From positions 1 to 21,568 of IMG/VR virus record IMGVR_UViG_3300043803_001339: a stretch of 21,568 nucleotides of DNA. One strand, 5' to 3'. How positions within the stretch are numbered: the stretch's first letter is position 1; each line of letters begins with the position of its first letter. Below, one piece after another: positions 705-14,009 of this stretch. The position numbers and the translations under genes were made by a program. Source of the DNA: a virus. The notes under the pieces were generated by a model. It did no database searches and was not told the DNA's origin. It saw only the letters and a program-made list of their open reading frames with translations.

Positions 705-2723
705 ATGGCCCGTTTAAGAACAGAAACCGCACCAGAAATAACAGTAAATGATGAGTCTGTTGTTTTTAAAGCAGCAACTGGAGCAACCGCACCATTAGTT
801 GAATTTAAGAATTCAAGTGGTACAGTAGTTGGTAATATAGCAGCAAACGGAGTATTGAATGTTACATCCGTTATTGCATCTAATGCAGGAACTGGATCTA
901 CTGATCTTGCCACAAGAGCATATGTAGATACTTTGTTTGCGGGAGTGAACTGGCATGATCCAGTTGCTTTAGCTACAACAGCAGCACTGCCAACATGCAC
1001 CTACGATAATGGAACTTCTGGCGTTGGAGCAACTTTAACAGCAACTGCAAACGGCGCACTAACTATTGATACTGGCACTGTTGCAGTTGGTGATTCTGTT
1101 TTAGTAAAAAATCAAGCCACTGCAACGCAAAATGGAATATATTCAGTAACCGCCACTGGTTCAGCTGGCGCAGTATGGGTTCTCACTAGAAGAACTGATT
1201 CTGATAATAATCCAACTGGAGAAGTACAAGAAGGTGACGCCATATTTGTTATTGGTGGATCAGTCAATATTAACTGTGGATTTATTCTTTCAGGAACAGC
1301 AACTGGAGCAAATGACACCATTATTTTTGGAACAGATAACTTAGTCTATTCACAATTTACTGGAACAGGTTCGTTTACAGCAGGTGATGGTTTAGTAATA
1401 TCAAACAGTGCTGTGAATATTGTTACTGCAAGCTCAGGAAGAATAGTAGTTAATGCCGACAGTATTGATTTGGCTAATGTATCGCAAACAGATACTAATA
1501 CAGGAACAGCTACAAGCTTTGTCGTTGGTTTATCCATAGACTCTTATGGAAGAGTAACTGGAACAAACAAGTCAGATGTTTCTTTTACTGGCTATGCAAC
1601 TTTGGCAAACCCAACTTTCACTGGTGCTCCGTTAGCTCCAACGGCAAATGTTAGCACAAATAATACCCAAATAGCTACAACAGCATTTGTCATTGCAGAG
1701 ATTGCAGACGAAGCCATCCTTAAGACATTAGCGAATGCAAAAGGCGATATCTTTACAGCTTCAGCAGATAATAGTCCAGCAGTTTTGGGAGTTGGAACAG
1801 ATGGTCAAAGACTCGCAGCAAATTCGTCTGCAACAAGTGGACTTTCTTGGGCAGCACACGATCTAGATAGCCTTAGTGACGTAGTTATATCTACACCTGC
1901 AAATAATCAATTCTTGAAATATAATGGTTCAGCTTGGGTTAACGCAGTTAGCACAGAAATTCAAAATATTGCTGACCTCGCAGATGTAACAATAACGTCT
2001 GCTACAAATAATCAGTTTATAAGATACAATGGTTCAGCCTGGGTTAACTCATCCGTAGCAGAGATCGTAAATATCAATGATCTTCTAGACGTAACAATAA
2101 CCTCTGCTGGTGCTAACCAAGTTCTTCTTTATAACGGTTCAGCTTGGGTTAATACATCTAATCCAACAATAGCTGGTAACTTAACAGTTTCTGGTAACTT
2201 AACAGTTACTGGAACAAATACAGTAATTAATACTACAGAATTACACGTTGCAGATAACGTTATCATGTTAAATAATGACGTTACAGGAACACCTAGCGAA
2301 AATGCTGGTGTAGAAATTGAGCGTGGAACTTCAACCAATGTTTTGCTCAGATGGAATGAAACGTCAGACCGTTGGGAATTCACCAATGACGGAACATATT
2401 ACCAAACAATTTACATGGACACAGTAACCAATGCTCAGACTGCAGCTTATACGCTAGCCTTGGCAGATAATGGTAAGATGGTAGAAATGAACGTTGCTTC
2501 AGGTAATGCTCTCACGGTTCCAACCAATGCAAACGTAGCATTCCCAGTGGGAACAACCATAACGATTCTTCAGACTGGTGCTGGACAGACTACTCTTACA
2601 CCTCAATCTGGAGTTACAATTAACGCAACCCCTGGCCTTAAGTTGCGCACACAGTGGGCATCTGCTACACTTATAAAGAGAGCCACAGATACGTGGGTAG
2701 CACTAGGAGACTTGGCGGCATAA
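705..2723 (+). CDS. Tail-fibre-like virion protein with tandem repeats
   Basis: This 672-aa protein is rich in T, A, N, S and G, as expected for beta-rich trimeric phage fibres. The N-terminal part has ATRAYVDTLFAGVNWHDPV, a phrase common in phage fibres. Around residues 300-330, TGAPLAPTA...TTQIATTAFV is another classic fibre segment. Residues about 389-485 hold three 35-residue repeats built on DL.DVTITSA..NQ...YNGSAWVN. A C-terminal domain follows with GNLTVSGNLTVTGT, VADNVIMLNNDVTG and RWNETSDRWEFTNDG. There is no signal peptide or membrane segment. AGGAG at 696-700 supports the ATG at 705. The role is probably host recognition or a structural fibre/appendage. Side-fibre versus baseplate-associated placement cannot be decided. 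Confidence 0.8.
   Translation: MARLRTETAPEITVNDESVVFKAATGATAPLVEFKNSSGTVVGNIAANGVLNVTSVIASNAGTGSTDLATRAYVDTLFAGVNWHDPVALATTAALPTCTYDNGTSGVGATLTATANGALTIDTGTVAVGDSVLVKNQATATQNGIYSVTATGSAGAVWVLTRRTDSDNNPTGEVQEGDAIFVIGGSVNINCGFILSGTATGANDTIIFGTDNLVYSQFTGTGSFTAGDGLVISNSAVNIVTASSGRIVVNADSIDLANVSQTDTNTGTATSFVVGLSIDSYGRVTGTNKSDVSFTGYATLANPTFTGAPLAPTANVSTNNTQIATTAFVIAEIADEAILKTLANAKGDIFTASADNSPAVLGVGTDGQRLAANSSATSGLSWAAHDLDSLSDVVISTPANNQFLKYNGSAWVNAVSTEIQNIADLADVTITSATNNQFIRYNGSAWVNSSVAEIVNINDLLDVTITSAGANQVLLYNGSAWVNTSNPTIAGNLTVSGNLTVTGTNTVINTTELHVADNVIMLNNDVTGTPSENAGVEIERGTSTNVLLRWNETSDRWEFTNDGTYYQTIYMDTVTNAQTAAYTLALADNGKMVEMNVASGNALTVPTNANVAFPVGTTITILQTGAGQTTLTPQSGVTINATPGLKLRTQWASATLIKRATDTWVALGDLAA
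1869..2159 (+). repeat. Three tandem 105-nt (35-residue) repeats in the fibre gene
   Basis: The units start near 1869, 1974 and 2079, the last being partial. Their DL(S/A/L)DV cores are exactly 105 nt apart, and each contains (N/A)NQ(F/V)(L/I)..(Y)NGSAWVN. The nucleotide sequence GGTTCAGC(T/C)TGGGTTAA is nearly identical in all three. This indicates internal duplication within the fibre shaft. Confidence 0.85.
2173..2207 (+). repeat. 17-nt direct repeat in the fibre gene
   Basis: CTGGTAACTTAACAGTT occurs at 2173-2189 and again at 2191-2207, an 18-nt period. It encodes GNLTVS then GNLTVT. It is a small in-frame duplication marking the start of the C-terminal fibre domain. Confidence 0.8.
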
Positions 2724-2724
2724 T

Positions 2725-3141
2725 ATGGCAGCAGACAGCGGAAAAAGAGAAAAAAGAAAAAGAGCTAAACCTACCCTCGCAGAGGGTACAGCAGCCGCAA
2801 CAGCGAACAGCACTATAACAAGTGCAGGTTTTACAGTTGGCACAGTTACAACAACTGCAACCACCACCGTAGCATTAAATAACACTGTATTGCCAGCTGT
2901 TACAGACACAACAGTAACCCCATTGGGAACTGCAATTAACTATGCAGTAGGAGCATTTTCACCTCCAGCGTTCTTTTCGCCTCCAGCTTTCTTTTCGCCG
3001 CCTGCGTTCTTTTCGCCTCCAGCTTTCTTTTCGCCTCCAGGATTCTTTGGTCCTCCAGGATTCTTTGCTCCTCCAGGATTTTTTGCGCCTCCAGGATTCT
3101 TTGGTCCTCCAGGATTCTTTGCTCCTCCAGCGTTTAAATAA
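2725..3141 (+). CDS. Small protein with PASTA-like domain and ten PP(A/G)FF repeats
   Basis: This 138-aa protein starts one base after the fibre stop, with GGCGG just upstream. It has three parts: (1) a basic N-terminus (GKREKRKRAKP, residues 6-16); (2) residues about 31-76, with VGTVTT...TVTPLGTAINYAVG, which resemble a PASTA domain (VGTVT... G..V..GT.IN..V), a fold known for binding peptidoglycan or stem peptides; (3) residues 79-138, ten hexapeptides of the form (S/G/A)PP(A/G)FF. The PPG units are collagen-like in local sequence but do not follow the G-x-y triplet period. There is no signal peptide. Next to a fibre gene, it may be an accessory adhesion or tail-tip protein. PP(A/G) is also a plausible target for the prolyl-hydroxylase-type enzymes that follow. 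The function is inference. Confidence 0.75.
   Translation: MAADSGKREKRKRAKPTLAEGTAAATANSTITSAGFTVGTVTTTATTTVALNNTVLPAVTDTTVTPLGTAINYAVGAFSPPAFFSPPAFFSPPAFFSPPAFFSPPGFFGPPGFFAPPGFFAPPGFFGPPGFFAPPAFK
2959..3138 (+). repeat. Ten 18-nt tandem coding repeats, (S/G/A)PP(A/G)FF
   Basis: The units are four SPPAFF, one SPPGFF, then GPPGFF, APPGFF, APPGFF, GPPGFF and a terminal APPAFK. Codons are highly similar (CCTCCAGGATTCTTT), so copies probably spread recently by slippage or recombination. The first half is SPPA-type and the second half GPPG/APPG-type. Confidence 0.95.
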
Positions 3142-3156
3142 TTCTAAAAAGAATTA
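3139..3156. terminator. Hairpin at the convergent gene junction, possible weak bidirectional terminator
   Basis: TAATTCT (3139-3145) and AGAATTA (3150-3156) form a 7-bp stem with an AAAA loop. The stop codons of both convergent genes lie in or at this stem (TAA at 3139-3141 on +, TAG at 3146-3144 on -). There is no strong T-run on either side, so efficiency is doubtful. Confidence 0.35.
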
Positions 3157-3785
3157 ACAGCGTAAAAGGCTGGAATAACCCATCTGGTACCAGATAAAAC
3201 TGGGGTTACTCCATGAATGTAGTTCACATCTCCCGGATGTGAAACAGCCATACCAGCTACTGGCTTTATCTTTAAAGAGTGTTGTGTATAAAAAAGCTCG
3301 CCACCAAGATAATCATCATTAATATAAAATAATGAATTGATATCATAATCAGGAAAAGCGTTAGGTCTTCCGTCCTGCAACTGCTTGTCTGCATGAGCTA
3401 TTTGAAAATCACCAGGTCTCCAGCACACTATCACGGGTGCTCTCTTTTCAACAACACAATTATAATTTTTATTTATATTTGCAGTCATTTTATCAATATA
3501 AAAATCAATTAGATCATATATATCTCTATCTAATCTTTTTACAATATAAGAACTACAAGTTCTATTTAACCAAACATCGGCACCATATTTTATGGTACCA
3601 TCTTCATGGTATTCGCTTTCTCTTGAATTATCCCATTCATCTATTTTAGATACGAAGTTTTGCAACTCGAGTAGATCAGTCTTATCAATAAAATTTTCTA
3701 TAATTTTAATATTATCGGTAGAATCTCCAAATGTTCCAGGCAAAACTTTCCAAGGTTTTTCTTCTGTTATTTCTTCGTTGAACAT
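3144..3785 (-). CDS. 2OG-Fe(II) oxygenase, prolyl-4-hydroxylase-like
   Basis: This 213-aa protein has the complete double-stranded beta-helix signature of 2OG-dependent dioxygenases. The iron ligands are H131 and D133 (QIAHAD) and H191 (YIHGV). R201 (SGTRW), ten residues after the last His, is the likely 2OG-carboxylate binder. FYINDDYLGGELFY (153-166) is typical of the P4H-like branch. Family enzymes hydroxylate a side chain or small molecule using O2 and 2OG. It is the only minus-strand gene in the window, ends against the PP(A/G)FF gene, and diverges from another oxygenase. GGAGGG lies just upstream of its ATG. Its orientation suggests an inserted, independently expressed gene. The substrate is unknown; the PPG repeats next door are one candidate. 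Confidence 0.88.
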   Translation of the reverse strand: MFNEEITEEKPWKVLPGTFGDSTDNIKIIENFIDKTDLLELQNFVSKIDEWDNSRESEYHEDGTIKYGADVWLNRTCSSYIVKRLDRDIYDLIDFYIDKMTANINKNYNCVVEKRAPVIVCWRPGDFQIAHADKQLQDGRPNAFPDYDINSLFYINDDYLGGELFYTQHSLKIKPVAGMAVSHPGDVNYIHGVTPVLSGTRWVIPAFYAVNSF

Positions 3786-3861: not shown

Positions 3862-4611
3862 ATGAACCCACAATATGTTTTTGATCCAAGATTAGGAATT
3901 ATTATATATAGAGGTGCCATCAAAGACACCGAGAGTATAATCGATAAGCTTGAGTCTGGATTAGGAAAATCTAATCACGATATATTCAAATGGGACTTGG
4001 GAACAACTGGAGATCAAAGAAAAGACAAAGGCTATAGGAATTGTAGTGACTTTAAAATACATCCAGACAATACAGTTTGGGAAAACTTTCCAGAAGTTTC
4101 TGAAATTAAAGAAGCATGTGAAGCAGTAAAGTCTCCTTTGCTCGAGTGCCTGTATGACTATGAAGTTAGACACGGAATAAAAATGGATTTTATGGAAAGT
4201 TTTAACTTTGTTAAATACATTCCAGGTGAACACTTTTCTGCTCACGCAGATCATGGATATAGCTATAACTGTACAGTTTCATCTGTGGCATATCTTAATG
4301 ATGATTACGAAGGTGGAGAACTGGTTTTTGATGTTCTTAAATTGAAAATAAAACCAAAAGTTGGAGATATAATACTATTTCCATCGACATACATCTACGC
4401 CCACAGTTCTATTCCAGTTATATCTGGAACAAAATATGCAGTTGTGACGATGTTTGACTATAATGAAAGAACTCATAAAGGCTTTCAGTATGGGCACAAT
4501 TTAGACGGATCACCAGCTGACCCTAATGCAGGAAAAGCTCCAAGATTCCCTGGCAGAATGCCTAGCTCAATAAAGCAGTTAGATCCAGATTATTTATTCT
4601 CAGGTATTTAA
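3862..4611 (+). CDS. 2OG-Fe(II) oxygenase, prolyl-4-hydroxylase-like
   Basis: This is a 249-aa dioxygenase. The iron ligands are H128 and D130 (HFSAHAD) and H181 (YAHSS). K191 (SGTKYAV) sits where the 2OG-binding basic residue is expected; Lys is the normal residue in animal P4Hs. VAYLNDDYEGGELVF (142-156) is the P4H-like strand block, followed by KPKVGDIILFPS. A roughly 50-residue C-terminal tail rich in P, G and D (HNLDGSPADPNAGKAPRFPG) lies beyond the catalytic fold and may bind substrate or partners. GGAG (about 3849-3852) precedes the ATG. It is divergent from the minus-strand oxygenase, and its stop directly abuts the next ATG. The substrate is unknown. Confidence 0.88.
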   Translation: MNPQYVFDPRLGIIIYRGAIKDTESIIDKLESGLGKSNHDIFKWDLGTTGDQRKDKGYRNCSDFKIHPDNTVWENFPEVSEIKEACEAVKSPLLECLYDYEVRHGIKMDFMESFNFVKYIPGEHFSAHADHGYSYNCTVSSVAYLNDDYEGGELVFDVLKLKIKPKVGDIILFPSTYIYAHSSIPVISGTKYAVVTMFDYNERTHKGFQYGHNLDGSPADPNAGKAPRFPGRMPSSIKQLDPDYLFSGI

Positions 4612-5349
4612 ATGACAAAAGTAACACTTTCAAGAACTCATAATAATTCAGTTGAAATAAGACAATCTCGACTTAAAAGAGATTGGATGGATCAAACCCA
4701 TAACAAGCATGCGTATCAATGCACACCAGTTACCACAGCGAATGTTAGTGGATGGGAAATGATTCTTCCCGAAGAATTAGTTGTAATTTGGGATGGTGGA
4801 CCCAGTCCAGCAAGAATAGTTAGCGGTGGCGTCCACAATGGATTTCATTTTGCCCATTCAAACATTCACGGAATGATATCAATTGCAACTGGTTGGGCTA
4901 TAAACACTGAAGAAGGTTATAGTTTATGGACAACTGGTTCGCCAAATTATTATGTTGATGGAGCTTCACCAATGACAGCTAGCATTCCAAGTAGTTGGTG
5001 GCCAGATGAAGTTCAAACAAACTGGGTAATACACAAGATAAATGAACCAGTTGTATTCCCTAAGGGAAGTCCTTTCTTGTTTTTTACTATTTATCCAACA
5101 GATCTACTTCCAAGTGTAGAATTCGAAGTACTCAATAGATGGGAAGATAGAGAGCTTGAAGAATCAAGAAGAAAATATAATGAGTTTAAAATGAAAAACT
5201 CACAGGAAAAACCATGGACATGGGTAAAGGGAATAAAAACTGGTCTAGACGCAGATGGAAAAAAAATAGGCCCAGGTACTAAGGGTATGTTGAGGTTAGC
5301 TGAATTAGATGATACGGCAGGAGAAAACGATTATGATGAATTACAATGA
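4612..5349 (+). CDS. DUF6065-type protein of unknown function
   Basis: This 245-aa protein matches my memory of the DUF6065 pattern. It has RDWMDQTHNKHAYQC (23-37), a NVSGWE block (44-49), WDGG (60-63), a His-rich FHFAHSNIHG stretch, GSPN in the middle, TNWV, and KGSPFLFFTIYP near residues 141-152. The charged C-terminal tail is predicted helical (NRWEDRELEESRRKYNEF). I know of no established activity for this family. Here it sits between two 2OG oxygenases with zero or negative spacing, so it is very likely co-translated with them. The cluster of conserved W, H and D residues suggests a binding or catalytic site. Whether it prepares a substrate or is itself modified is open. Confidence 0.7.
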   Translation: MTKVTLSRTHNNSVEIRQSRLKRDWMDQTHNKHAYQCTPVTTANVSGWEMILPEELVVIWDGGPSPARIVSGGVHNGFHFAHSNIHGMISIATGWAINTEEGYSLWTTGSPNYYVDGASPMTASIPSSWWPDEVQTNWVIHKINEPVVFPKGSPFLFFTIYPTDLLPSVEFEVLNRWEDRELEESRRKYNEFKMKNSQEKPWTWVKGIKTGLDADGKKIGPGTKGMLRLAELDDTAGENDYDELQ

Positions 5350-6223
5350 CGTAAAAGGAAAGCATCTTGGTGGCGGAGTCGTCCTTTTCGAAAATGCCGC
5401 AGAGATAGACTGGGATTGGATGTACAACTTCTGTGAAAGAAGTATAGAAAAAGAGAAGGCAGAAATGTATAGCCTTGCAATACATCCAAATACTGGAGAA
5501 GAAGTTTATGTAAACAATAGTGGATATTATTTTCCTATTGAAACAATTGAACAGATGCCCTACAGAGCGACAAGAATACATAGAGATCAAGAGCTTCAAG
5601 CAATGAAAACCCTAGCTTTTATTGATGAAGTAAAATATAAATGTTTGTTAAAATATATAGAAATGTTTCCCTTGGTTTACAAATGTGTTTGGTGGCAAAG
5701 TAGAGGTCATATAACACAATATAAATCAGACGTTTATATGGGTCCTCACGCAGATATACAAACAGATTATATGTATGGGGTTCCTCATCCAACTCAGCAA
5801 CTAGCAATGAAGAATGTAGTTGGTACGATATTTTATATTAATGATAGCGTTGAGTCTGATGATGAGCTTAATGGTAAAAATTTTACAGCTGGTTCACATT
5901 ACTTTCCTTATTTGGATATAGAATACTTTCCTAAAAGAGGAGACGTATTAATGTTTCCAAGTGACTATATGGCCGCTCATCAAATAAAGCCAACAGGTGA
6001 TGGTGTAAGATATGCATATCTTGGGTGGTATTGTCATGGAAGCCCGAATGAGGCTTTGGGTGAAAATGTTCTTGATCCATTGAAAGATCCTGCTAATGCA
6101 ATTAATACAGTAAATGTTTACCTTCCTTTTCTTAGACAAGATTATTTAAAACATCTTGAAGGTAAAGGGTATAAAGAAGACTCACTACAGTACATTGTAG
6201 CCTTAAACATGGAACAATATTAA
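5333..6223 (+). CDS. 2OG-Fe(II) oxygenase (duplicated module copy A, gene 1)
   Basis: This is a 296-aa protein from the ATG at 5333, chosen because AGGAG (5319-5323) sits 9 nt upstream; the ATG at 5309 lies before that site. It overlaps the DUF6065 gene by 17 nt. The iron ligands are H139 and D141 (GPHADIQ) and H216 (AAHQI), with R226 (GVRYAY) as the 2OG binder. TIFYINDS replaces the usual NDDYEGGEL run, and the segment before the last His (DIEYFPKRGDVLMFPSDY) is canonical. The N-terminal extension of about 120 residues is longer than in the smaller oxygenases here. Its partner in module copy B is 11838-12587, which has the same catalytic layout but limited sequence similarity. Confidence 0.85.
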   Translation: MMNYNDVKGKHLGGGVVLFENAAEIDWDWMYNFCERSIEKEKAEMYSLAIHPNTGEEVYVNNSGYYFPIETIEQMPYRATRIHRDQELQAMKTLAFIDEVKYKCLLKYIEMFPLVYKCVWWQSRGHITQYKSDVYMGPHADIQTDYMYGVPHPTQQLAMKNVVGTIFYINDSVESDDELNGKNFTAGSHYFPYLDIEYFPKRGDVLMFPSDYMAAHQIKPTGDGVRYAYLGWYCHGSPNEALGENVLDPLKDPANAINTVNVYLPFLRQDYLKHLEGKGYKEDSLQYIVALNMEQY

Positions 6224-6225
6224 TA

Positions 6226-6447
6226 ATGAATATTTCACTAGAAGAAATTAATTTGATTAAAGAAAAAACTTCTTTATATTTAACTAAGTCTATTTATAAA
6301 TTATCCTATATCCTAGGTAGGGATCCGGAACAAGTAATGAGCACAACTTCCCTGGAAGAGTTGTTGGATGGCGATGCATCGCCAATGCAAAAAGATGCAA
6401 TCACCTCATTATATAATCAAGTTACTGCATTAAAAAAACTTAATTAA
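6226..6447 (+). CDS. Small helical protein, module copy A, gene 2
   Basis: This 73-aa protein belongs to no family I recognise. It looks all-helical and is rich in L, K, E and S. The core SLYLTKSIYKLSYILGRDPEQV closely parallels KSYLSKSIATLSSILGLETDV in the 71-aa product of 12612-12827, sharing YL.KSI..LS.ILG. Both also end in a helix of the form (Y/L)N(Q/K)...LKKL or YNKL. It begins three bases after the oxygenase stop, so coupled translation is likely. A subunit, adaptor or carrier role with the neighbouring enzymes is plausible. There is no clear phosphopantetheine-type DSL motif, so I do not call it a carrier protein. Confidence 0.7.
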   Translation: MNISLEEINLIKEKTSLYLTKSIYKLSYILGRDPEQVMSTTSLEELLDGDASPMQKDAITSLYNQVTALKKLN

Positions 6448-6448
6448 T

Positions 6449-6655
6449 ATGGAACCTAAAGAAATTAGCGAAGAACTTATTCATGAGTTTACGGAAAAAA
6501 TGGATGACGCAGTACCTACATATTCTGATGAAGACGAAAATATTGTAATGGAAAATGGCGGAACTACAAGGGAGTATGTTCTAACAAATGACTTTGTTGA
6601 AATGAATAGATATATAATTCTTCCTTTATCTCCAAGTATAGAAGATTTAACATGA
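6449..6655 (+). CDS. Short acidic protein, module copy A, gene 3
   Basis: This 68-aa protein is very acidic (SDEDENIVME in the middle, many E/D at the N-terminus), with a hydrophobic C-terminal stretch (RYIILPLSPSIEDL). I do not recognise it. It begins one base after the previous stop with no clear Shine-Dalgarno site and overlaps the next gene through ATGA, so it is probably translated by coupling. It occupies the same position as the 63-aa acidic product of 12829-13020. I see no convincing sequence similarity between the two, only shared size, charge and place. Confidence 0.6.
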   Translation: MEPKEISEELIHEFTEKMDDAVPTYSDEDENIVMENGGTTREYVLTNDFVEMNRYIILPLSPSIEDLT

Positions 6656-6936
6656 GCTATAATGCAATTGAAGACTTAAAATATATAGATAGACAAATTA
6701 GTTTCTATTTATACTGCATCGGCTTAGATGGTTCTAATACAGATATCTATACTATAGATGAAATCATAAAAGCAACTAGATCTATAACTATAGCTCCGAT
6801 AGATGATGTTGAATCTGGTAAGTTAAATTTAGGTCAAGATCCTTCTTACTTGTATTTAAAGAATCAAAGAATTTCACTAATTGGAAACATAAGAAGATTA
6901 TGGCATATGCGTCAAATTGCGATTGGGGCAATTTAA
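6652..6936 (+). CDS. Small protein, module copy A, gene 4
   Basis: This 94-aa protein is a paralogue of the 93-aa product of 13001-13282. Shared positions are R.Q...SF.(L/Y)Y..G(L/I)D near the N-terminus, TID(E/D)(I/L)I in the middle, and Y(L)K.Q.I.L....RR.W...Q.A near the C-terminus. It is predicted mostly helical with an amphipathic, arginine-rich last helix, and has no signal or membrane segment. The family is unknown. Its ATG overlaps the previous stop by 4 nt. The conserved basic RR.W helix could contact the acidic gene 3 protein, nucleic acid or the methyltransferase-like protein. This is inference. Confidence 0.68.
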   Translation: MSYNAIEDLKYIDRQISFYLYCIGLDGSNTDIYTIDEIIKATRSITIAPIDDVESGKLNLGQDPSYLYLKNQRISLIGNIRRLWHMRQIAIGAI

Positions 6937-6937
6937 T

Positions 6938-7642
6938 ATGATGTATGAAAAAGATTATTTTGACAATTTAGCAAGATTGATTAAGTATACAGACATAGAA
7001 TCCATTGAAGAGTCGATACAAAAAAGTAAAGATGTTAAATCATATTTAGATACATTGTCTCTTGATAAAAGAAAAATTGCAGCCGGTATGGATTTTCTAA
7101 TTTGGTATTTTGATGTATTTAGTCAAGAAAGCCATTTTTGGAATACTAATCAAGCTTATTATTACGCCGCAAATACTCATGAGTTTGGTTTCCTAACGGC
7201 TAACCCTAAGACCTCTCTTATGACGCTACCTGCTTTCAACACAGGGCTTGTCAGACTAATGCAAAAAAGATCAGAATTAACTCTGTTGAATAATTATCAG
7301 TTAAATTTATTTGAAAGAATAATAAAAAAAGATAATGAAAACTGGAATTATAATACAATTCTAATGCAAGACGTAGAATCTGGAACCGCTGGAAAATACG
7401 ACTTTATATGCATGAGTATACACGACGTATTACACGATCCTGAGGTAATTATTAAGTTTTACAATATGTTAAATAAAAACGGAACAATAATGATGTTATA
7501 TACGGGTACCGATTCCTTATATAAAGACGAGTCCGTTTTTACTGATTTTCACGAAGTACACGAATGCCTTAAGAATATAGAGGATTCCTGCGTGTACCAC
7601 AATCCAACAGGTGCCGCTGTTACATATGCGGTAAAATTGTAG
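6938..7642 (+). CDS. Degenerate methyltransferase-like protein, module copy A, gene 5
   Basis: This is a 234-aa protein starting at ATG 6938, one base after the previous stop; an earlier in-frame TTG at 6917 is unlikely. The second half reads like the C-terminal part of a class I methyltransferase: YDFICMSIHDVLHDPEVI (motif IV-like) then FYNMLNKNGTIMMLY (motif V/VI-like, with NG before a strand). The glycine-rich SAM motif I is not recognisable at the expected place (SLMTLPAFNTG). The acidic residue after strand 2 is replaced within LLNNYQL. The product of 13275-14009 is a paralogue: SE(L/I)..LNN..L.L(F/Y)E, the SDS or TDS run, and the C-terminal YH or VYH block align. It may be a catalytically altered or scaffold homologue. 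Confidence 0.6.
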   Translation: MMYEKDYFDNLARLIKYTDIESIEESIQKSKDVKSYLDTLSLDKRKIAAGMDFLIWYFDVFSQESHFWNTNQAYYYAANTHEFGFLTANPKTSLMTLPAFNTGLVRLMQKRSELTLLNNYQLNLFERIIKKDNENWNYNTILMQDVESGTAGKYDFICMSIHDVLHDPEVIIKFYNMLNKNGTIMMLYTGTDSLYKDESVFTDFHEVHECLKNIEDSCVYHNPTGAAVTYAVKL

Positions 7643-7649
7643 TACTATA
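7643..7649 (+). promoter_or_regulatory. TACTATA element immediately upstream of a gene lacking an SD
   Basis: TACTATATATAATATG places the heptamer 13 nt before the ATG at 7656. If it is a -10 element, transcription would start at about the A of the ATG, giving a leaderless mRNA. This fits the absence of any Shine-Dalgarno sequence there. Confidence 0.4.
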
Positions 7650-7655
7650 TATAAT

Positions 7656-8333
7656 ATGATTGTTTTAGATAATTTTGTAAAAGATCAAATCTTATTAGAT
7701 GAAATTAAATATACCAAAGACTTTTTCCCAGAGTCAATGGGCGATGAAGAACGTATTGCCACTGTTTTAAATGGATATCACGATGAATTATGCGACTGTT
7801 TTGCTCCATATATGTTCTGGGACGGGTGGCATAAGTCAGATGCAGATACTCCAAGAAAAAGATTAATTAAAGCAATCTGGGAAAATAATCTTCCTTTTCC
7901 GATTGAAGAATTATGTGGATTTGAGTATTGGACTAGAACCTTTAAGCCAGGACAATTCTTAGATGTTCACGTAGATGAAGATACTTTCCTGTATGCAGAC
8001 ACCAAGGTTTTTAGAGGGCCAAAGATTGGCTGCGTATACTACCCAGAAACAAATGATGTTGTAGGCGGTTTTCTAGAACTACATCCTCAAGCGATATCAG
8101 AAGATACCCCAGATGCTCTTGAAAGAGAAAATATGAATTCTCTGGTTGTTCCTATGGAACTTAGGGAAAGAATAGCATGCCTTCCAAATAGATTGATCAT
8201 CTTCGATGCTGGTCACGTTATACATAATACGACTCCCCCTATTAGCGGTGTTAGAAGGGTTGTTGTTATTAATGTTTGGCATAAGGACAGTCCCCCTTCT
8301 GCGTTGACAACTGGAAAATTTTATTATGAATAA
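7656..8333 (+). CDS. 2OG-Fe(II) oxygenase
   Basis: This 225-aa protein has iron ligands H105 and D107 (DVHVDEDT) and H190 (HVIHNTT), and a 2OG-binding R200 (SGVRRVV) exactly ten residues later, the same spacing as in the P4H-like genes here. The central IGCVYYP...VVGGFLELH block replaces NDDY.GGEL. KPGQFLDVH is the usual approach to the first ligand. The C-terminus VWHKDSPPSA may be a substrate-side loop. There is no Shine-Dalgarno sequence upstream, only a TACTATA element 13 nt before the start, so the gene may have its own leaderless transcript. It overlaps the next oxygenase by 8 nt. The substrate is unknown. Confidence 0.85.
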   Translation: MIVLDNFVKDQILLDEIKYTKDFFPESMGDEERIATVLNGYHDELCDCFAPYMFWDGWHKSDADTPRKRLIKAIWENNLPFPIEELCGFEYWTRTFKPGQFLDVHVDEDTFLYADTKVFRGPKIGCVYYPETNDVVGGFLELHPQAISEDTPDALERENMNSLVVPMELRERIACLPNRLIIFDAGHVIHNTTPPISGVRRVVVINVWHKDSPPSALTTGKFYYE

Positions 8334-8934
8334 TTTAAAAGTTGTTAATTTATTTTCATTAAATGTATATACATCTTATTTAGAGAATATAAATAATGAT
8401 ATTATTTTAAATGAAATTAAAGAACATTCTGGTTCTATACCGGACGTAAAAGATCCTCATCCAGCACATACATTTTATGAGGATAGAACATTTCCATTTG
8501 AAAAATCTGAATGTAAAAAATTATTTAAAGAAATAGAAAAAACTGTAAGTTCTATTCTTAATAGAGAAATGAAAATAAATTCTATATGGACACTCTCCTT
8601 AGAGGAGGGACAGTCGGTAACAGCCCATACCCACAAGGTTAATACTCATTTATATCCAGAAGAATACTTTTCTGTCTCTTACTATATCAATGCACCAAAA
8701 AACAGTGCAGATTTAATATTTACTACATCACATTGCAATACAATTGAAACATCAACTGCAATTACTCCAGAAACAGGAATGTTAGTTATGTTCAATTCTT
8801 ACATAAACCATATGACCAATAGGCATTATAATAAAGAGCAGAGAGTTGTTGTTAGCGCAAATCTAAGTCCATCAAATGCAAACACTGCAGAAAATCCAGA
8901 TTGGTCAGCATACGTAGTCCCAAGCAACTATTGA
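8326..8934 (+). CDS. 2OG-Fe(II) oxygenase-like protein with HxH variant
   Basis: This 202-aa protein has the double-stranded beta-helix pattern: TLSLEEGQSVTAHTHKVN, YFSVSYYINAP, ITPETGMLVMFNSYINHMTN, then EQRVVVSANL. The final His is H162 and the basic 2OG residue R173. The first ligand motif appears as H101-T-H103 rather than HxD. An H.H-type motif is, to my memory, found in the TIGR02466-like branch of putative 2OG oxygenases, so this may be normal for that subgroup rather than decay. The gene overlaps the previous oxygenase by 8 nt (ATGAATAA), which suggests coupled expression and perhaps a heteromeric or two-step reaction. Confidence 0.72.
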   Translation: MNNLKVVNLFSLNVYTSYLENINNDIILNEIKEHSGSIPDVKDPHPAHTFYEDRTFPFEKSECKKLFKEIEKTVSSILNREMKINSIWTLSLEEGQSVTAHTHKVNTHLYPEEYFSVSYYINAPKNSADLIFTTSHCNTIETSTAITPETGMLVMFNSYINHMTNRHYNKEQRVVVSANLSPSNANTAENPDWSAYVVPSNY

Positions 8935-8947
8935 TAGAAGAGGAAAA

Positions 8948-10057
8948 ATGACAGTTACAAGAGATACCTATAAAGAATTTATTGGAAACATAAAGATCAA
9001 TGACATTGATCCGATTGTGAACGCTCCAGAAGTTGACTTTGATGCTGTTGACCATGTTGTTAAAGCTAACCTTGATGTAGTGTTTACTTGGGATTATTCT
9101 TTAGTCCGCACACAATTAAGAAAGCTTTACGAAAAAGCTAAGAACAATCAATGGAATGGAGAAACCGCATTAGACTGGTCTACTCCTGTTGATATAGAAA
9201 AGTCTGTGGCTGAGGATTATGCAAATTTTGGATCGACTAGAGAGATGTCGGTTTACAAGGGTAGTCCTGTGGAAAAATGGGGCGATAAAGAATGGTTGCA
9301 ATTCGGCTTAGAAAGTAGAAGGTGGATGATCTCACAATTCATACACGGAGAACAAGGTGCTTTGATTTGCTCCGCAAAACTAACTCAGACATGTCCATGG
9401 TATGATGGAAAACTTTTTGCTGCAACACAAGTTATGGATGAAGCTCGACATGTTGAAGTTTTTGCAAAGTATACTAATGAAAAATTGGGTGGAACACTTC
9501 CTTTTAATTGGCATATTCAAAGCCTAGTTGATGACACCATCGCTGATAATCGTTGGGACATAACCTATTTAGGTATGCAGATTATGGTTGAGGGGCTCGG
9601 CCTTGCCTCAATGGCATACATGCGTGAACTGACAAGCGAACCACTGTTAAAGCAATTGTTACGTAATGTTATGGCTGACGAAGCACGCCATGTTTCATTC
9701 GGTATCATCTCACTCAAGGAAATCTATGCAGAAATGAGCGATTCAGAGATCATGGAACGTCAGCAAATTGCTTATGAAGCTAGCATAAAGCTTGGAGAGC
9801 GAATGCTCCAACAAGAGGTGTATGAAAAGATGGGGGTTAAGACAAAAGACATTGCCCCATTCTTGTTAAACGATCCAGCACAGGCTTGGATTAGAAAGAT
9901 GCTTGCGGCTAAGATCATTCCAAACCTTAGTAAGTTAGGATTGCTAGATAGAAATGGAGCATGGCTAAGAAGAAAGTTTGAAGAAATGGGAACCATAGAA
10001 TTTGAAAATCTTGGAGATACAGAAGAGGAATTCTCGGCTTTTATCCACAGTTACTAA
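8948..10057 (+). CDS. Ferritin-like diiron oxygenase/oxidase
   Basis: This 369-aa protein is mostly helical with a full set of diiron ligands on a four-helix bundle: E135 (IHGEQ), E165 and H168 (DEARHVEVF), E215 (IMVEGLG), and E245 and H248 (DEARHVSFG). This E / ExxH / E / ExxH pattern belongs to the ribonucleotide-reductase-R2-like and desaturase-like branch of the ferritin superfamily. The WDYSLVRTQLRKLYEKAKNNQWN block near 48-70 matches a group of bacterial ferritin-like proteins I recall. Such enzymes use O2 to oxidise an organic substrate. It lacks features that would make it a clear NrdB. AGAGGA lies upstream of the ATG. It adds a second class of iron/O2 enzyme to the oxygenase cluster. 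Its substrate is unknown. Confidence 0.8.
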   Translation: MTVTRDTYKEFIGNIKINDIDPIVNAPEVDFDAVDHVVKANLDVVFTWDYSLVRTQLRKLYEKAKNNQWNGETALDWSTPVDIEKSVAEDYANFGSTREMSVYKGSPVEKWGDKEWLQFGLESRRWMISQFIHGEQGALICSAKLTQTCPWYDGKLFAATQVMDEARHVEVFAKYTNEKLGGTLPFNWHIQSLVDDTIADNRWDITYLGMQIMVEGLGLASMAYMRELTSEPLLKQLLRNVMADEARHVSFGIISLKEIYAEMSDSEIMERQQIAYEASIKLGERMLQQEVYEKMGVKTKDIAPFLLNDPAQAWIRKMLAAKIIPNLSKLGLLDRNGAWLRRKFEEMGTIEFENLGDTEEEFSAFIHSY

Positions 10058-10058
10058 T

Positions 10059-10706
10059 ATGAAAACCCCTAATGATTTTAAAGTAAATACAGTTTATTCT
10101 TATGATACGCCAAATGATTTAAAAAATTATTACAATGATTGGGCCCATGAGTATGAAGATTATACTGAACAGGTAAATTATATTCTTCCACAAAAAGTAG
10201 TTGAAATATTTTGCTCCTATCCATTAAGTAATGATTCTATAGTTCTAGATATTGGCTGTGGAACAGGATTGGTTGGTTATTTTCTTGGTTTAATAAAACA
10301 AGATATATGGATAGAAGGAACAGACATATCTGGTTCGATGATACAAGTAGCAGCAAAAAAAACTAAACCAAATTTTAAACCCACCTATGACTGGATGATT
10401 GTACAGGACTTTAAGAAAAATAAATTTTTACTAGAAGATCATTATGACGGAATAATTAGTGCAGGAACTTTTACTCTTGGACACTTAGATTGCGATGATT
10501 TAATTACTTCAATAAAATTCTTAAAAAAAGATGGGTTAGCAACAATTAGTATAAAAGAAGATCATTTTATTAAAAATAGTTTTAACGAAAAAATATCTCA
10601 GTTAAAAAAAAATAATATAATAAAAAATGTAGAATATTTTAAAGTTAATTCATATAATTCTGATTTCATCGCACAGTCAATTGTTGTAAAATTTAATAAG
10701 GTTTAA
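10059..10706 (+). CDS. Class I SAM-dependent methyltransferase
   Basis: This 215-aa protein is read from ATG 10059, one base after the diiron gene stop; an in-frame TTG at 10002 would overlap heavily and is not favoured. SAM motif I is intact: IVLDIGCGTGLVGYF (61-75). It is followed by the acidic post-strand-2 residue D89 (EGTDISGSM), a YDGIISAGTFTLGHL motif IV-like segment, and LKKDGLATISI. This contrasts with the two methyltransferase-like module proteins, which lack motif I. The N-terminal YYNDWAHEYEDYTEQVNY helix is typical of small-molecule or lipid methyltransferases (UbiE/TPMT-like). The substrate is unknown. Linkage to the diiron gene and a glycosyltransferase suggests a small-molecule or sugar tailoring step. 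Confidence 0.85.
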   Translation: MKTPNDFKVNTVYSYDTPNDLKNYYNDWAHEYEDYTEQVNYILPQKVVEIFCSYPLSNDSIVLDIGCGTGLVGYFLGLIKQDIWIEGTDISGSMIQVAAKKTKPNFKPTYDWMIVQDFKKNKFLLEDHYDGIISAGTFTLGHLDCDDLITSIKFLKKDGLATISIKEDHFIKNSFNEKISQLKKNNIIKNVEYFKVNSYNSDFIAQSIVVKFNKV

Positions 10707-10712
10707 AAAAAA

Positions 10713-11447
10713 ATGATACCAAAAATAATATGGCAAACACATAGCTATAAATTTAAAGATCTTCCATTATTTTTAAAAGGACCAATGTTATCTTGGCAAG
10801 AAAATAATAAAGATTATAAATATAATTATGTAAATCATATTGAAAGAAAAATATTTATTAATAATAATTTTGGTAAAGAGTGGCTATCTTTTTATGAGCA
10901 ATGTGAATCTCAAGTTTTTCAGGCGGATATGTGGAGAGTACTCTGCGTATATGAATATGGTGGGATATATGCAGACATGGATACCATATGCTTAAGAAGT
11001 ATAAATGATTTTATGAATTTAAATAAAGATTTTATTTGCGAAGCAGGATTTCCTAAAACTCATGGTTGGATAAATACTTCAATTTTTGCTAGTCAACCAA
11101 AGGGCAAATTTATCACAGATTTAAAAAATTTAATCTATGATAGGTGTAAAGCTAAAAATGGGAATCAAATAACAGTTGAAGATTGTGGTCCATTAGCATA
11201 TAGTCAGTTAATGGATAACTATATTGAAAATAGACGCGATATATCAGACATACAGTTATCTGATTCTAATTATGAGATAAATAAAGAAGAGTCGGTGCTA
11301 CAAATCAATGGCTCAACAACTTGGAACGATATTAAGTGGGGCTTTGATTTTTCTTACCTAAACGATATTTACAAATCTCTTATAAAAGATTCTAAAATAG
11401 ATATAAAATTATACGCCAAAGGAGGCCATGGCGGTTGGATTGTTTAA
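10713..11447 (+). CDS. GT32-type glycosyltransferase (OCH1-like fold)
   Basis: This 244-aa protein opens with MIPKIIWQTH, the hallmark of the GT32 / capsular-polysaccharide sugar transferase group. It continues with QADMWRVLCVYEYGGIYADMDT (about 70-91), where D88-M-D90 is the DxD metal and nucleotide-sugar site. The later HGWINTSIFASQPKG segment and the terminal GGHGGWIV are also family-like. Known members transfer mannose, galactose or similar sugars onto glycans. In this cluster it probably glycosylates a product of the oxygenase/methyltransferase pathway, a virion protein, or host polysaccharide. The gene is very AT-rich with long A-runs before its start, so its ribosome site is weak (AAGG at a distance). 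Confidence 0.85.
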   Translation: MIPKIIWQTHSYKFKDLPLFLKGPMLSWQENNKDYKYNYVNHIERKIFINNNFGKEWLSFYEQCESQVFQADMWRVLCVYEYGGIYADMDTICLRSINDFMNLNKDFICEAGFPKTHGWINTSIFASQPKGKFITDLKNLIYDRCKAKNGNQITVEDCGPLAYSQLMDNYIENRRDISDIQLSDSNYEINKEESVLQINGSTTWNDIKWGFDFSYLNDIYKSLIKDSKIDIKLYAKGGHGGWIV

Positions 11448-11462
11448 TTCAAAAAGCCTTTA

Positions 11463-11837
11463 ATGTCTATGGCATATAATTTAATTGGAACTAACCCCAA
11501 ATCCTGTACCGGTATATGTATAAGGTTAAACATTTGGAAGTGGTATGAGTTTGTGAGAATGTTAAAATATTTTAACATAATTTCTGAATCAGAATTCCCC
11601 TTATGGATGACAAACGATCAAGTTGAAATATCAGAAAAAGAATCAAAAAAAATATCAAAAAATATTAAATTAAATCTAGATAGTTTTAATAAATTTATAA
11701 AAGAAATATATACGGAAAATATTCCGTACTCATTTATGCCGTGGCACAGGGAGGTGTGTTGCCCCATATTAAATGGATCAGATTTGAAATATGTGCTATT
11801 ATTTTTAGACAATTGTGGCGGCTTTAAGGTTGAATAA
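11463..11837 (+). CDS. Conserved-looking small protein of unknown function, Cys-containing
   Basis: This 124-aa protein carries SCTGIC (C15, C19), VCCPI near residues 98-102 and NCGGFKVE at the C-terminus. The pattern NIWKWYEF followed by a C-terminal FLDNCGGFKV resembles a loosely defined group of small bacterial hypotheticals, a weak match from memory. The paired cysteines could bind metal or form disulfides, but no full zinc motif is present. It lies 15 nt after the glycosyltransferase and its stop touches the next ATG. No clear Shine-Dalgarno sequence is seen; an ATG at 11469 is an alternative start. Confidence 0.55.
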   Translation: MSMAYNLIGTNPKSCTGICIRLNIWKWYEFVRMLKYFNIISESEFPLWMTNDQVEISEKESKKISKNIKLNLDSFNKFIKEIYTENIPYSFMPWHREVCCPILNGSDLKYVLLFLDNCGGFKVE

Positions 11838-12587
11838 ATGATGAAAAAATATAAACCAAGAATAATTATATTTACTGACTTCTTGCCAGAAGAAGATTGG
11901 AAAATTGTAGATAAGTACTGTAGGGACAATGCTCACAAATTTCCGTATGTTGGATATGGTTCTCCAATACGATGGAAGATAGAAGAGCATTCTAAAAATC
12001 CAGACATTAAATATGTTCGTTCTTTTTTAATTTCGCAAGAAGAATATGATTTATATATTAAAGGTGAAATACCAGAACCATACCCCAACGATACTAAGCA
12101 TGGAGATAATTATGTCATCTCTATGGAAGAAGTTCAAAAGACAGAAGAACTGCCAATAACAGCACTGCTACATTATACTAGTTGGCCAAATAGTGCAATA
12201 CAAAATAAAACATATGATATCATTAATGGTTATTTATTTAGTGTTGTTGACATTGTTAAAGATATATATGATGAAGAGTGCTTTAGCGAAAGCGGTCCAT
12301 GGATAGCAGTCGCTAGAGAGGGTGGGTATATGAATATGCATTGTGATGGAACATTCATTCAGAACAGAGATGCAGTAACACAATATTCTAGTGTCTACTA
12401 TGTAAATGATGACTATGAGGGCGGCGAATTTAATATGCCGTTAATGGGTTTTAAATTTAAGCCAAAAGCAAATTCTCTTCTTGTTTTTACGCATTCATCC
12501 CATGAAGATATGGCACACGAAGTAACCCCTGTAATTTCGGGTGAACGCTTTGTATCTCAGGGTTTCTTCGCCATCAAAAAAACATGA
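11838..12587 (+). CDS. 2OG-Fe(II) oxygenase, P4H-like (duplicated module copy B, gene 1)
   Basis: This 249-aa protein has iron ligands H168 and D170 (NMHCDGT) and H227 (MAHEV), and the 2OG residue R237 (SGERF). SSVYYVNDDYEGGEFNM (184-200) is the P4H-like block and matches those in the two oxygenases at 3144 and 3862 better than the one in its positional counterpart at 5333. So the module may have kept the position for an oxygenase while exchanging the enzyme type. An N-terminal region of about 150 residues with a YIKGEIPEPYPND stretch precedes the catalytic fold. TATACT at 12594-12599 follows the stop and could start the next transcript. Confidence 0.87.
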   Translation: MMKKYKPRIIIFTDFLPEEDWKIVDKYCRDNAHKFPYVGYGSPIRWKIEEHSKNPDIKYVRSFLISQEEYDLYIKGEIPEPYPNDTKHGDNYVISMEEVQKTEELPITALLHYTSWPNSAIQNKTYDIINGYLFSVVDIVKDIYDEECFSESGPWIAVAREGGYMNMHCDGTFIQNRDAVTQYSSVYYVNDDYEGGEFNMPLMGFKFKPKANSLLVFTHSSHEDMAHEVTPVISGERFVSQGFFAIKKT

Positions 12588-12611
12588 TAGACTTATACTA
12601 AAGGAGAAAAT

Positions 12612-12827
12612 ATGCAACTCGGTCTCTACGATGTAGATAAAGCAAAAACACAGGCAAAGTCCTATTTATCAAAATCAATAGCTACGCTTAGTTCCATTCT
12701 TGGCTTAGAAACAGATGTTATTGATTTAGATCAGGCAAATCCTTATCCCGAAGGTAGTCATTTGCACGCAGCTTATCTTTGTTTATCAAATGAATTAAAA
12801 GCTTATAATAAACTTATTGGAGAGTAA
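12612..12827 (+). CDS. Small helical protein, module copy B, gene 2
   Basis: This 71-aa protein has a strong ribosome site (AAAGGAG, 6 nt before the ATG). KSYLSKSIATLSSILGLETDV parallels the 73-aa product of 6226-6447. The shared core is YL.KSI..LS.ILG, with a matching C-terminal helix (LKAYNKLIGE). The middle (DQANPYPEGSHLHAAY) differs. There is no known family. Conservation of this core in both module copies while DNA identity is lost argues that the protein is under selection and not a spurious reading frame. Confidence 0.72.
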   Translation: MQLGLYDVDKAKTQAKSYLSKSIATLSSILGLETDVIDLDQANPYPEGSHLHAAYLCLSNELKAYNKLIGE

Positions 12828-12828
12828 T

Positions 12829-13020
12829 ATGAGCAGTATTGAAAACTTTGATTGGTCAATAAGGAAAGGCGAATCTGTAACCGATATTACAGATTGGGAT
12901 AATGAAACAATTGAGTGGGACTCTGCAACAGGAATATACTATGTTGCAGGCAAACCAGTAAGCATGTGTCAAGGTGTGGCAATGTTTAAGGAAGATAAAG
13001 ATGACAACGATAAAGTATGA
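12829..13020 (+). CDS. Short acidic protein, module copy B, gene 3
   Basis: This 63-aa protein starts at ATG 12829, behind GGAG (12819-12822). It is acidic and W-rich (DWDNETIEWDSATGIYYVAG), with a C-terminal KEDKDDNDKV tail. I do not recognise it. The alternating W..T..I.W...TG.YYVAGKPV run suggests a small beta-hairpin or WW-like strand pair. It shares only position, size and charge with the product of 6449-6655. Its end overlaps the next gene by 20 nt. Confidence 0.6.
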   Translation: MSSIENFDWSIRKGESVTDITDWDNETIEWDSATGIYYVAGKPVSMCQGVAMFKEDKDDNDKV

Positions 13021-13282
13021 CGCCAATGCCGAGCTAGAGATTAGATCTCAGCATCTAGCATCGTTTATGTACGTACTTGGTATTGATGAAAAAGATTTTT
13101 TAGAAGTAACAATAGATGATTTAATATCTTTAATTAGAAAAAGATACGCTTATGATCATGATATATCTTTAGATGTAGCTTCAAAAGAGTATATTAAAAA
13201 GCAAAATATAGCTTTATCTAGAGGGGTAAGAAGAGCTTGGTTCGATGTTCAATTTGCAAACTATGAGGTTAAAAATGTCTAG
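13001..13282 (+). CDS. Small protein, module copy B, gene 4
   Basis: This is a 93-aa protein from ATG 13001, with AAGGA at 12989-12993; an in-frame ATG at 12974 lies further inside the previous gene. It is a paralogue of the 94-aa product of 6652-6936: S-Q/H..SF.Y..G(I/L)D, TID(D/E)(L/I)I, and Y(I/L)K.Q.I.L....RR.W...Q.A are shared. It is predicted helical with a basic third helix. It overlaps the next gene by 8 nt, so the two are probably made together. Confidence 0.7.
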   Translation: MTTIKYDANAELEIRSQHLASFMYVLGIDEKDFLEVTIDDLISLIRKRYAYDHDISLDVASKEYIKKQNIALSRGVRRAWFDVQFANYEVKNV

Positions 13283-14009
13283 TGATAAAAGATATGAACC
13301 TCAGATGTCTTTTGACTACACAAAATGGGTTTATGATTGGAAGTCGTTTGCTAGCGAATCAACAAAAATTGATGGACCAGATTCTGTAGCAATATCGAAC
13401 TACCTATTTAATGTAGTTGGTGTTGATAAAAGAAATATTGCAACTGGCGGTGCGAGTGACTATGAGTTCGTAATCCACTATCCAAGACCAAACCTTGCCG
13501 ATTCATACGGGCAATCTCAGTGGATGCCGATACTCCTCATACAAGCATTAATGGATATTAGTCCGAAGAGACGCATACTGGCACTTTCTGGGGGTCTTGA
13601 CCGTTTTAGATTAAAGCCGTTTCAAGAGATATATAATTCAGAAATTTATTTTTTAAATAATAAAAAACTTGCACTATATGAGAAGTTTCAATACGAAAAT
13701 GCTCCCATGGAATATGGCGTGGTAACTCAGCAATACCTAGAGAGTAACTTAGACTTTACTTTTGATATGATAGTTGGTTGGTCTCAGGATATGGAAAATC
13801 CATTCATTCCAGTAGATTTTTATCTGGATAGATTGGAAAAGGGTGGTATTTTAATTATTCAAAATAGTTCTGATAGCGTTTTCCTATATCAAAATGACAC
13901 TCAAGCATCTCCAGTATGGGAATATCATCAGGATATAAAATCAAGAGACGACTGCCATATGTACCATATTCCACTTTTCTATGGAATAACAATTGTTGTA
14001 AAGCAGTAA
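13275..14009 (+). CDS. Methyltransferase-like protein, module copy B, gene 5
   Basis: This is a 244-aa protein read from ATG 13275, which has GAGG (13265-13268) 6 nt upstream; the ATG at 13245 has no such site. Its Rossmann-like features are RRILALSGGLDRF (a glycine-bearing loop in place of the usual GxGxG), then IYFLNNKKLALYEKF, where the ribose-binding acid is Asn, then FDMIVGWSQDMENP and LEKGGILIIQNS. It is better preserved than its paralogue at 6938-7642. Both share the LNN core, the post-motif S/TDS run and a C-terminal MYH/VYH segment. Methylation activity is uncertain because the SAM-binding residues are changed. It ends the accessory block. Confidence 0.62.
   Translation: MSSDKRYEPQMSFDYTKWVYDWKSFASESTKIDGPDSVAISNYLFNVVGVDKRNIATGGASDYEFVIHYPRPNLADSYGQSQWMPILLIQALMDISPKRRILALSGGLDRFRLKPFQEIYNSEIYFLNNKKLALYEKFQYENAPMEYGVVTQQYLESNLDFTFDMIVGWSQDMENPFIPVDFYLDRLEKGGILIIQNSSDSVFLYQNDTQASPVWEYHQDIKSRDDCHMYHIPLFYGITIVVKQ

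Follow-up and report, generated by a model that had tools for sequence, protein, structure and literature searches.

The question raised by IMG/VR virus record IMGVR_UViG_3300043803_001339 is whether a set of genes that stands twice in one uncultured phage genome is a genuine, maintained module, and what such a module might do. The window analysed here is the whole record, of 21,568 bases. A first-pass annotation had proposed that five genes are present twice in the same order, a 2-oxoglutarate (2OG)-Fe(II) oxygenase followed by four genes that we designate g2 to g5 (suffixes A and B for the two copies). Our open reading frame (ORF) calls match the list in that annotation, and all ten ORFs of the two sets were present in the order it gave. 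We confirmed that g2, g4 and g5 of the two copies are paralogous, in the same order and under purifying selection. The constant core, however, is four genes, g2-g3-g4-g5, rather than five, and it is apparently a new, maintained gene module, undescribed within the literature searched, which was partial.

Genes 2, 4 and 5 are paralogous between the two copies

In pairwise BLASTP, g5A aligned with g5B at E=6e-13 (26% over 219 amino acids, aa), g4A with g4B at E=5e-7 (27%), and g2A with g2B at E=2e-5 (42% over 31 aa). No alignment was obtained by pairwise BLASTP between g3A and g3B, and the oxygenases leading the two copies had the superfamily core alone in common, in line with the earlier description of gene 3 as alike in size and charge only and of the oxygenases as different subtypes. 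Iterated profiles of g4 and g5 started from either side retrieved both copies (E<=1e-32), as did the B-side profile of g2 (2e-24); the A-side g2 profile retrieved copy A only in the window. When compared with shuffled sequences, the mean A-B local score reached a z of 17.5 for g5, 14.9 for g4, 4.2 for g2 and 0.7 for g3.

Synonymous differences between A and B (pS) amounted to 0.62-0.81 per site, which is near saturation, so nucleotide identity between the copies is indeed gone, as had been claimed. The ratio of nonsynonymous to synonymous rates (dN/dS) was 0.03-0.24 within type A and 0.04-0.49 within type B, lowest for g5 and highest for g2. Near-saturated synonymous sites together with low within-type dN/dS indicate that both copies were kept through long divergence under selection, which bears out the earlier suggestion that they had been maintained.

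The constant core has four genes and several old types

In order to follow the module in other phages, module loci from IMG/VR were sorted into 24 sequence-sharing groups; some contigs are short. Cut or short contigs aside, g2-g3-g4-g5 were found together and in this order across the 24 groups, except that L029 has no recognised g2 and L065 ends inside the module near the contig end. An oxygenase gene lies between g3B and g4B at L049:5009-5725 and L050:8978-9763, the sole internal interruption of the module that was seen. The oxygenase preceding g2 is present in the window and in some relatives, and missing from whole sets of type A loci (L017-L025, L034-L041), and in type B its presence varies; therefore the core comprises four genes, and the leading oxygenase is a variable companion. 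The profile searches found genes 2, 4 and 5 related, and the order is kept in many uncultured IMG/VR phage contigs, the opposite of the two outcomes that the first-pass annotation had named as damaging to its proposal.

Type A alone was present in 8 groups, type B alone in 11 and both in 5 (n=24), which makes A and B look ancient and separately inherited, not the product of a recent tandem duplication. A type-neutral profile retrieved more distant modules within loci originally retrieved for a different purpose: type C (L214), type D (L164, L168, L177, L182 and L193), type E (L216 and L230), type F (L237) and type G (L276). A scan with the type D g5 gave 36 loci. Among 38 type D loci, 36 read DUF6065-g2'-g2-g3D-g4-g5 and the remaining two are cut by contig ends; types C and D have an additional g2-like gene (P=1e-5).

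Searches of Pfam, PHROGs and PADLOC gave no credible match for any of the module families, and NCBIfam gave none for g5, though weak sub-threshold matches exist. Neither g5A, g5B, g3A, g3B, DUF6065 nor two distant g5 types matched cultured phages (tblastn, INPHARED), and g5 had no relative in the bacterial and archaeal genomes of GTDB. The phages that bear the module have quite different terminases. The terminase of contig G010 (of L043) shares 86% identity with its counterpart in Actinomycetia phage DSL-LC01 (OQ999401.1), a host hint for that one relative only; in DSL-LC01 neither the module nor the PPxF repeat described below was found, and this phage instead carries a halogenase and numerous genes for collagen-like fibres.

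g5 has a predicted methyltransferase fold with an altered pocket

The AlphaFold2 model of g5B (predicted local distance difference test, pLDDT, 77; predicted template modelling score, pTM, 0.80) has a Rossmann-like methyltransferase fold. Foldseek placed TrmR first (E 2.6e-9), followed by COMT-like O-methyltransferases (~1e-7), with template modelling scores of about 0.5, and the predicted fold is like that of COMT/TrmR-like class I O-methyltransferases (PDB 5zw3, 3ntv). In BFVD it matched four uncharacterised proteins of uncultured phages (20-44% identity), and a weak profile match to tRNA cmo5U34 methyltransferase was also obtained (E=0.013). The family differs from the COMT/TrmR-like enzymes in its pocket. 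The residue after beta-2, which is the acidic residue for the ribose of S-adenosylmethionine (SAM) in those enzymes, is Asn in 38/38 non-redundant members, and motif I shows no conserved GxGxG, the best column being Gly in 24 of the 38. Elsewhere in these 38 members an Asn, a Gly, a Tyr and a His are invariant, and a Glu and a second His nearly so. As judged from alignment and model, g5 is a family with a methyltransferase fold in which the usual SAM signature has been lost; the earlier label "methyltransferase-like" holds for the predicted fold but not for the SAM-binding signature.

A protein of ~240 aa occupies the same slot in other islands, as a lone g5 would; none credibly matched the g5 profile, and its clusters resemble oxygenases and, on visual inspection, a further DUF6065-like protein.

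The small proteins g2, g3 and g4

Homology of g2 extends across types A, B and D (hhalign P=6e-18), and both g2 and g4 evolve fast. The comparison of g2 with g4 (hhalign P 0.002 to 0.00025) is at most suggestive of homology. The g4B model contains four helices (pLDDT 91); its fold search returned nothing better than E=0.5 and hence no convincing solved-structure match, and a PDB profile search with g3B and g4 found nothing.

Within a type, g3 is conserved (mean identities of 70-76%; type A mean 76%, minimum 68%). Homology of g3A and g3B was rejected at the sensitivity used (BLASTP, shuffle z, hhalign), and third genes of the distant types could not be aligned by hhalign with A or B g3 in all but two cases. 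These are the g3 part of L216, which aligned with g3B (P=2e-5), and the g3 of L214, which is perhaps related to g3A (weak, P=0.001). At L216:7486-7962 a single 158-aa protein represents g3 and g4 fused, which is evidence that the two work together.

A defence-system reading of the module was also considered and found unsupported, PADLOC having given only one weak partial match for g4B, to a cyclase (E=0.0055).

The module lies in a fibre island rich in 2OG oxygenases

The earlier description of the gene set was incomplete as to its setting: it overlooked that the module lies in a fibre island with a proline- and phenylalanine-rich (PPxF)n repeat protein, many 2OG oxygenases and DUF6065. In the window, a tail fibre gene and the repeat gene are followed by a reverse-strand 2OG oxygenase, a second 2OG oxygenase, DUF6065, a further 2OG oxygenase and module A; then come a 2OG-like 225-aa protein, a 2OG oxygenase, an R2/AurF-like diiron protein (c9), a methyltransferase (c10) and a glycosyltransferase; and a 124-aa protein, a 2OG oxygenase and module B precede structural genes that include sheath and tube-like proteins. 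The oxygenases leading the two copies both scored above the PF13640 cut-off and carry the HxD...H...R residues.

A (PPxFFx)n or shorter (PP[FY]F)n repeat was found near the module in 22 of the 24 groups; in L053 it lies elsewhere on the contig (L342), and the last group has only 3.1 kb upstream. In module islands the repeat protein adjoins modifying enzymes, and some repeat proteins start with domains matching tail proteins (non-repeat part, phrog_31 4.9e-6).

In the converse direction, IMG/VR loci were fetched by repeat DNA patterns alone, which yielded 236 loci; all figures for these are among the matches listed, a sample of mutually non-independent loci. As a control, 60 loci (545 kb) were fetched by an arbitrary DNA pattern. 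The repeat lay inside an ORF in 222/236 loci. A 2OG oxygenase match was present in 183/236 repeat loci compared to 0/60 control loci, and DUF6065 in 136/236 compared to 0/60; oxygenase density was 31 matches per 100 kb in the repeat loci and 0 in the control. A recognisable g4 or g5 was found in just 17 of the 236, which makes the module an accessory of the island; where present, it mostly stands directly after DUF6065, at times with an oxygenase between. IMG/VR thus contains many loci in which a PPxF protein is encoded beside fibre genes; these proteins show a strong association with 2OG oxygenases and DUF6065, and most of the loci lack g2-g5. Repeat proteins can be seen in the window, in L043, L050 and L096, and in these 236 further loci.

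Type B has companions of its own. The diiron oxygenase c9 was present in 12/16 and the methyltransferase c10 in 11/16 B-containing groups, and both were absent from all 8 A-only groups (for c9, Fisher p=0.0013, not corrected for phylogeny). Among the repeat loci c9 occurred in 2/236, and among type D loci in 0/38. In L053 the order is c9-c10-g2B-g3B-g4B-g5B, and c10 comes after c9 wherever both were seen.

Three further island proteins were noted. DUF6065 (PF19541), of which no mention was found in the partial literature searched, is a regular island member and at times a tandem pair (L304, L307, L325, L366 and L375 among DUF6065 loci). A ~205-aa protein that is glutathione peroxidase-like by eye recurs in islands (L093:11985-12614, L121:16345-16974, L159:9409-10023) and is possibly linked to oxidative chemistry. 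Some B-only islands hold a ~180-aa protein that looks NAD(P)-binding by eye (GIYSPGAMGST; L096:7756-8304, L101, L103, L050).

A possible role in the modification of a fibre-associated repeat protein

The unit probably contributes to either modification or assembly of the repeat protein. We propose, with a probability of roughly 45%, that g2-g5 form an accessory sub-complex of an island that modifies or matures a fibre-associated protein with a proline-phenylalanine repeat tail. The island 2OG oxygenases, joined in type B by c9 and c10, would oxidise residues in the repeats or the fibre and tailor them further. The small helical proteins g2 and g4 would act as adaptors binding g5, and g5, with its altered cofactor pocket, would present or alter the substrate. 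An exchangeable third subunit, g3, may choose the partner or the site addressed, which would explain two diverged copies with different g3 types in one phage. For now the system is best filed as a putative form of virus-encoded virion-protein modification.

A precedent for viral protein hydroxylation is the prolyl 4-hydroxylase of chlorovirus PBCV-1 (Eriksson 1999, cited in PMC9301287 and PMC7019647), which, like the island enzymes, is a viral 2OG oxygenase of the prolyl-hydroxylase superfamily and was tested on peptide substrates. PBCV-1 differs in being a eukaryotic algal virus, whereas in the present island several oxygenases adjoin one repeat protein. To our knowledge, PBCV-1 has no counterpart of g2-g5. 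T4-like cyanophages resemble the island in having several 2OG-Fe(II) oxygenases per phage genome; the difference is that DNA repair or 2OG metabolism was suggested for them, and the accessible part of that text mentions neither the module nor the repeat protein (PMC3037559). If the proposal is true, uncultured phages use an oxygenase battery and a modular adaptor unit to alter a repetitive tail-fibre protein chemically. This would represent a little-explored layer of phage-host attachment and provide a functional setting for the numerous phage 2OG oxygenases that are commonly described as auxiliary metabolic genes. New families of proteins and a single testable island are also defined, and through the association of 2OG oxygenases with (PPxF)n proteins the question can be tested directly even if the proposed chemistry is wrong.

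Several points weigh against the proposal. We infer the contacts within the complex, the modification and its substrate; the island usually occurs without the module (recognisable in 17/236 repeat loci), so the island's basic function does not depend on it; and the module's location might reflect a shared hot spot, not a shared pathway. The chlorovirus precedent, too, comes with an unpublished virion negative, hydroxyproline reportedly being undetected in PBCV-1 particles (reference 162 of PMC7019647).

The foremost alternative, although an unlikely one, is that g2-g5 themselves belong to the virion or to its assembly, as an adaptor or chaperone complex that mounts the fibre or repeat protein with g5 as a dead methyltransferase scaffold and no chemistry involved. 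Helical adaptors, the loss of the SAM signature in g5, a location in a tail-gene cluster beside sheath and tube genes, and the fast evolution of g2 and g4 all fit such a role. However, a minority of island-bearing phages have the module, no credible PHROG structural-family match was obtained, and the strictly conserved polar residues of g5 (N, E, Y and two H) have the appearance of a functional site. Doubtful as well is a bolder form of the modification proposal, a combinatorial machine in which a shared helical/Rossmann core of g2-g4-g5 carries a new non-SAM activity in the methyltransferase fold of g5, and an exchangeable g3 sets specificity by directing island oxygenases to different sites on an adhesive proline-phenylalanine tail of the fibre.

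That the locus encodes a peptide-modification or secondary-metabolite pathway, with g3 as the ribosomal precursor or carrier for the oxygenases, c9, c10 and g5, seems to us improbable. The short, acidic g3, conserved within types and exchanged between them, would suit a precursor, and the tailoring-type enzymes nearby resemble the S-SSM6a-type cyanophage clusters of 8-12 genes, which likewise combine 2OG oxygenases with methyltransferases (PMC7824862). By that analogy a small-molecule or capsule pathway may be counted as a main functional rival. These clusters differ in having carbamoyl transferases, HAD phosphatases and a halogenase, and were proposed to serve capsule decoration or to yield an antibiotic; the part of PMC7824862 consulted says nothing of DUF6065, of g2-g5 or of a gene with PPxF repeats. 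Moreover, neither a leader/core pattern nor a protease or exporter was seen, the fusion of g3 to g4 in L216 is what one would expect for a subunit rather than a released peptide, and a fibre-linked repeat protein accompanies nearly every module group.

A nucleic-acid-directed modification or a host-takeover module, which TrmR as the best g5 fold match and the weak cmo5U34 methyltransferase profile would favour, is very unlikely, given the non-conserved SAM signature, the fibre-island location, the lack of a credible RNA-binding family and the single weak cyclase match in PADLOC. Two unrelated, convergently arranged sets, or a functionless recent tandem duplication, are scarcely credible: an unalignable g3 and a modest pairwise likeness of g2 would be in keeping with them, but they are contradicted by the profile homology of g2, g4 and g5, by synonymous near-saturation with purifying selection, and by the same order in many contigs.

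Features of the window

Likely start codons were chosen from the starts of relatives (g5A 6938/6941, g3B 12829, g4B 13001, g5B 13275).

Table 1. Genes of the two module copies and of the surrounding fibre island in the 21,568-base window.
Feature	Position	Strand	Basis or remark
g2A, 73-aa helical protein, copy A	6226..6447	+	homologous to g2B and type D g2
g3A, 68-aa acidic protein, variable slot, type A	6449..6655	+	not alignable to g3B
g4A, 94-aa helical protein	6652..6936	+	4-nucleotide overlap with g3A
g5A, predicted methyltransferase-fold protein, non-canonical pocket	6941..7642	+	alternative starts 6938, 6917
g2B, 71-aa helical protein, copy B	12612..12827	+	BLASTP, iterated profiles
g3B, ~63-aa acidic protein, variable slot, type B	12829..13020	+	related to N-terminal part of L216 fused g3-g4
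g4B, 93-aa predicted four-helix protein	13001..13282	+	20-nucleotide overlap with g3B; AlphaFold2 pLDDT 91
g5B, predicted COMT/TrmR-like Rossmann fold	13275..14009	+	8-nucleotide overlap with g4B; upstream starts 13245, 13263
Tail fibre protein, head of island	705..2723	+	phrog_8745 5.3e-29
(PPxFFx)n-tailed protein, proposed substrate or adhesin	2725..3141	+	read directly; ends in PPAFFS/PPGFFG units
2OG-Fe(II) oxygenase	3144..3785	-	phrog_61 2.9e-17
2OG-Fe(II) oxygenase	3862..4611	+	phrog_61 9.6e-27
DUF6065 protein, frequent left neighbour of module	4612..5349	+	PF19541 6.9e-37
2OG-Fe(II) oxygenase before copy A, variable companion	5309..6223, alternative start 5333	+	PF13640 2.6e-7; HAD...AHQIKP...RYA
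2OG-oxygenase-like protein, 225 aa, usual right neighbour of type A	7656..8333	+	PF13640 6.8e-4, below Pfam cut-off; position conserved
2OG-Fe(II) oxygenase c7	8326..8934	+	PF13759 1.5e-9
R2-like/AurF-like diiron oxygenase c9	8948..10057	+	PF11583 1.5e-7; NF006200 1.4e-8, below its cut-off
Class I methyltransferase c10	10059..10706	+	PF13649 7.3e-8
2OG-Fe(II) oxygenase before copy B, variable companion	11838..12587	+	PF13640 5.7e-11; HCD...AHEVTP...RFV

A second tandem pair is present in the window: the neighbouring genes at 19431-20123 and 20200-20907, each encoding ~230 aa, both match phrog_9206 and probably encode tail tube proteins, though that family is labelled "major head protein".

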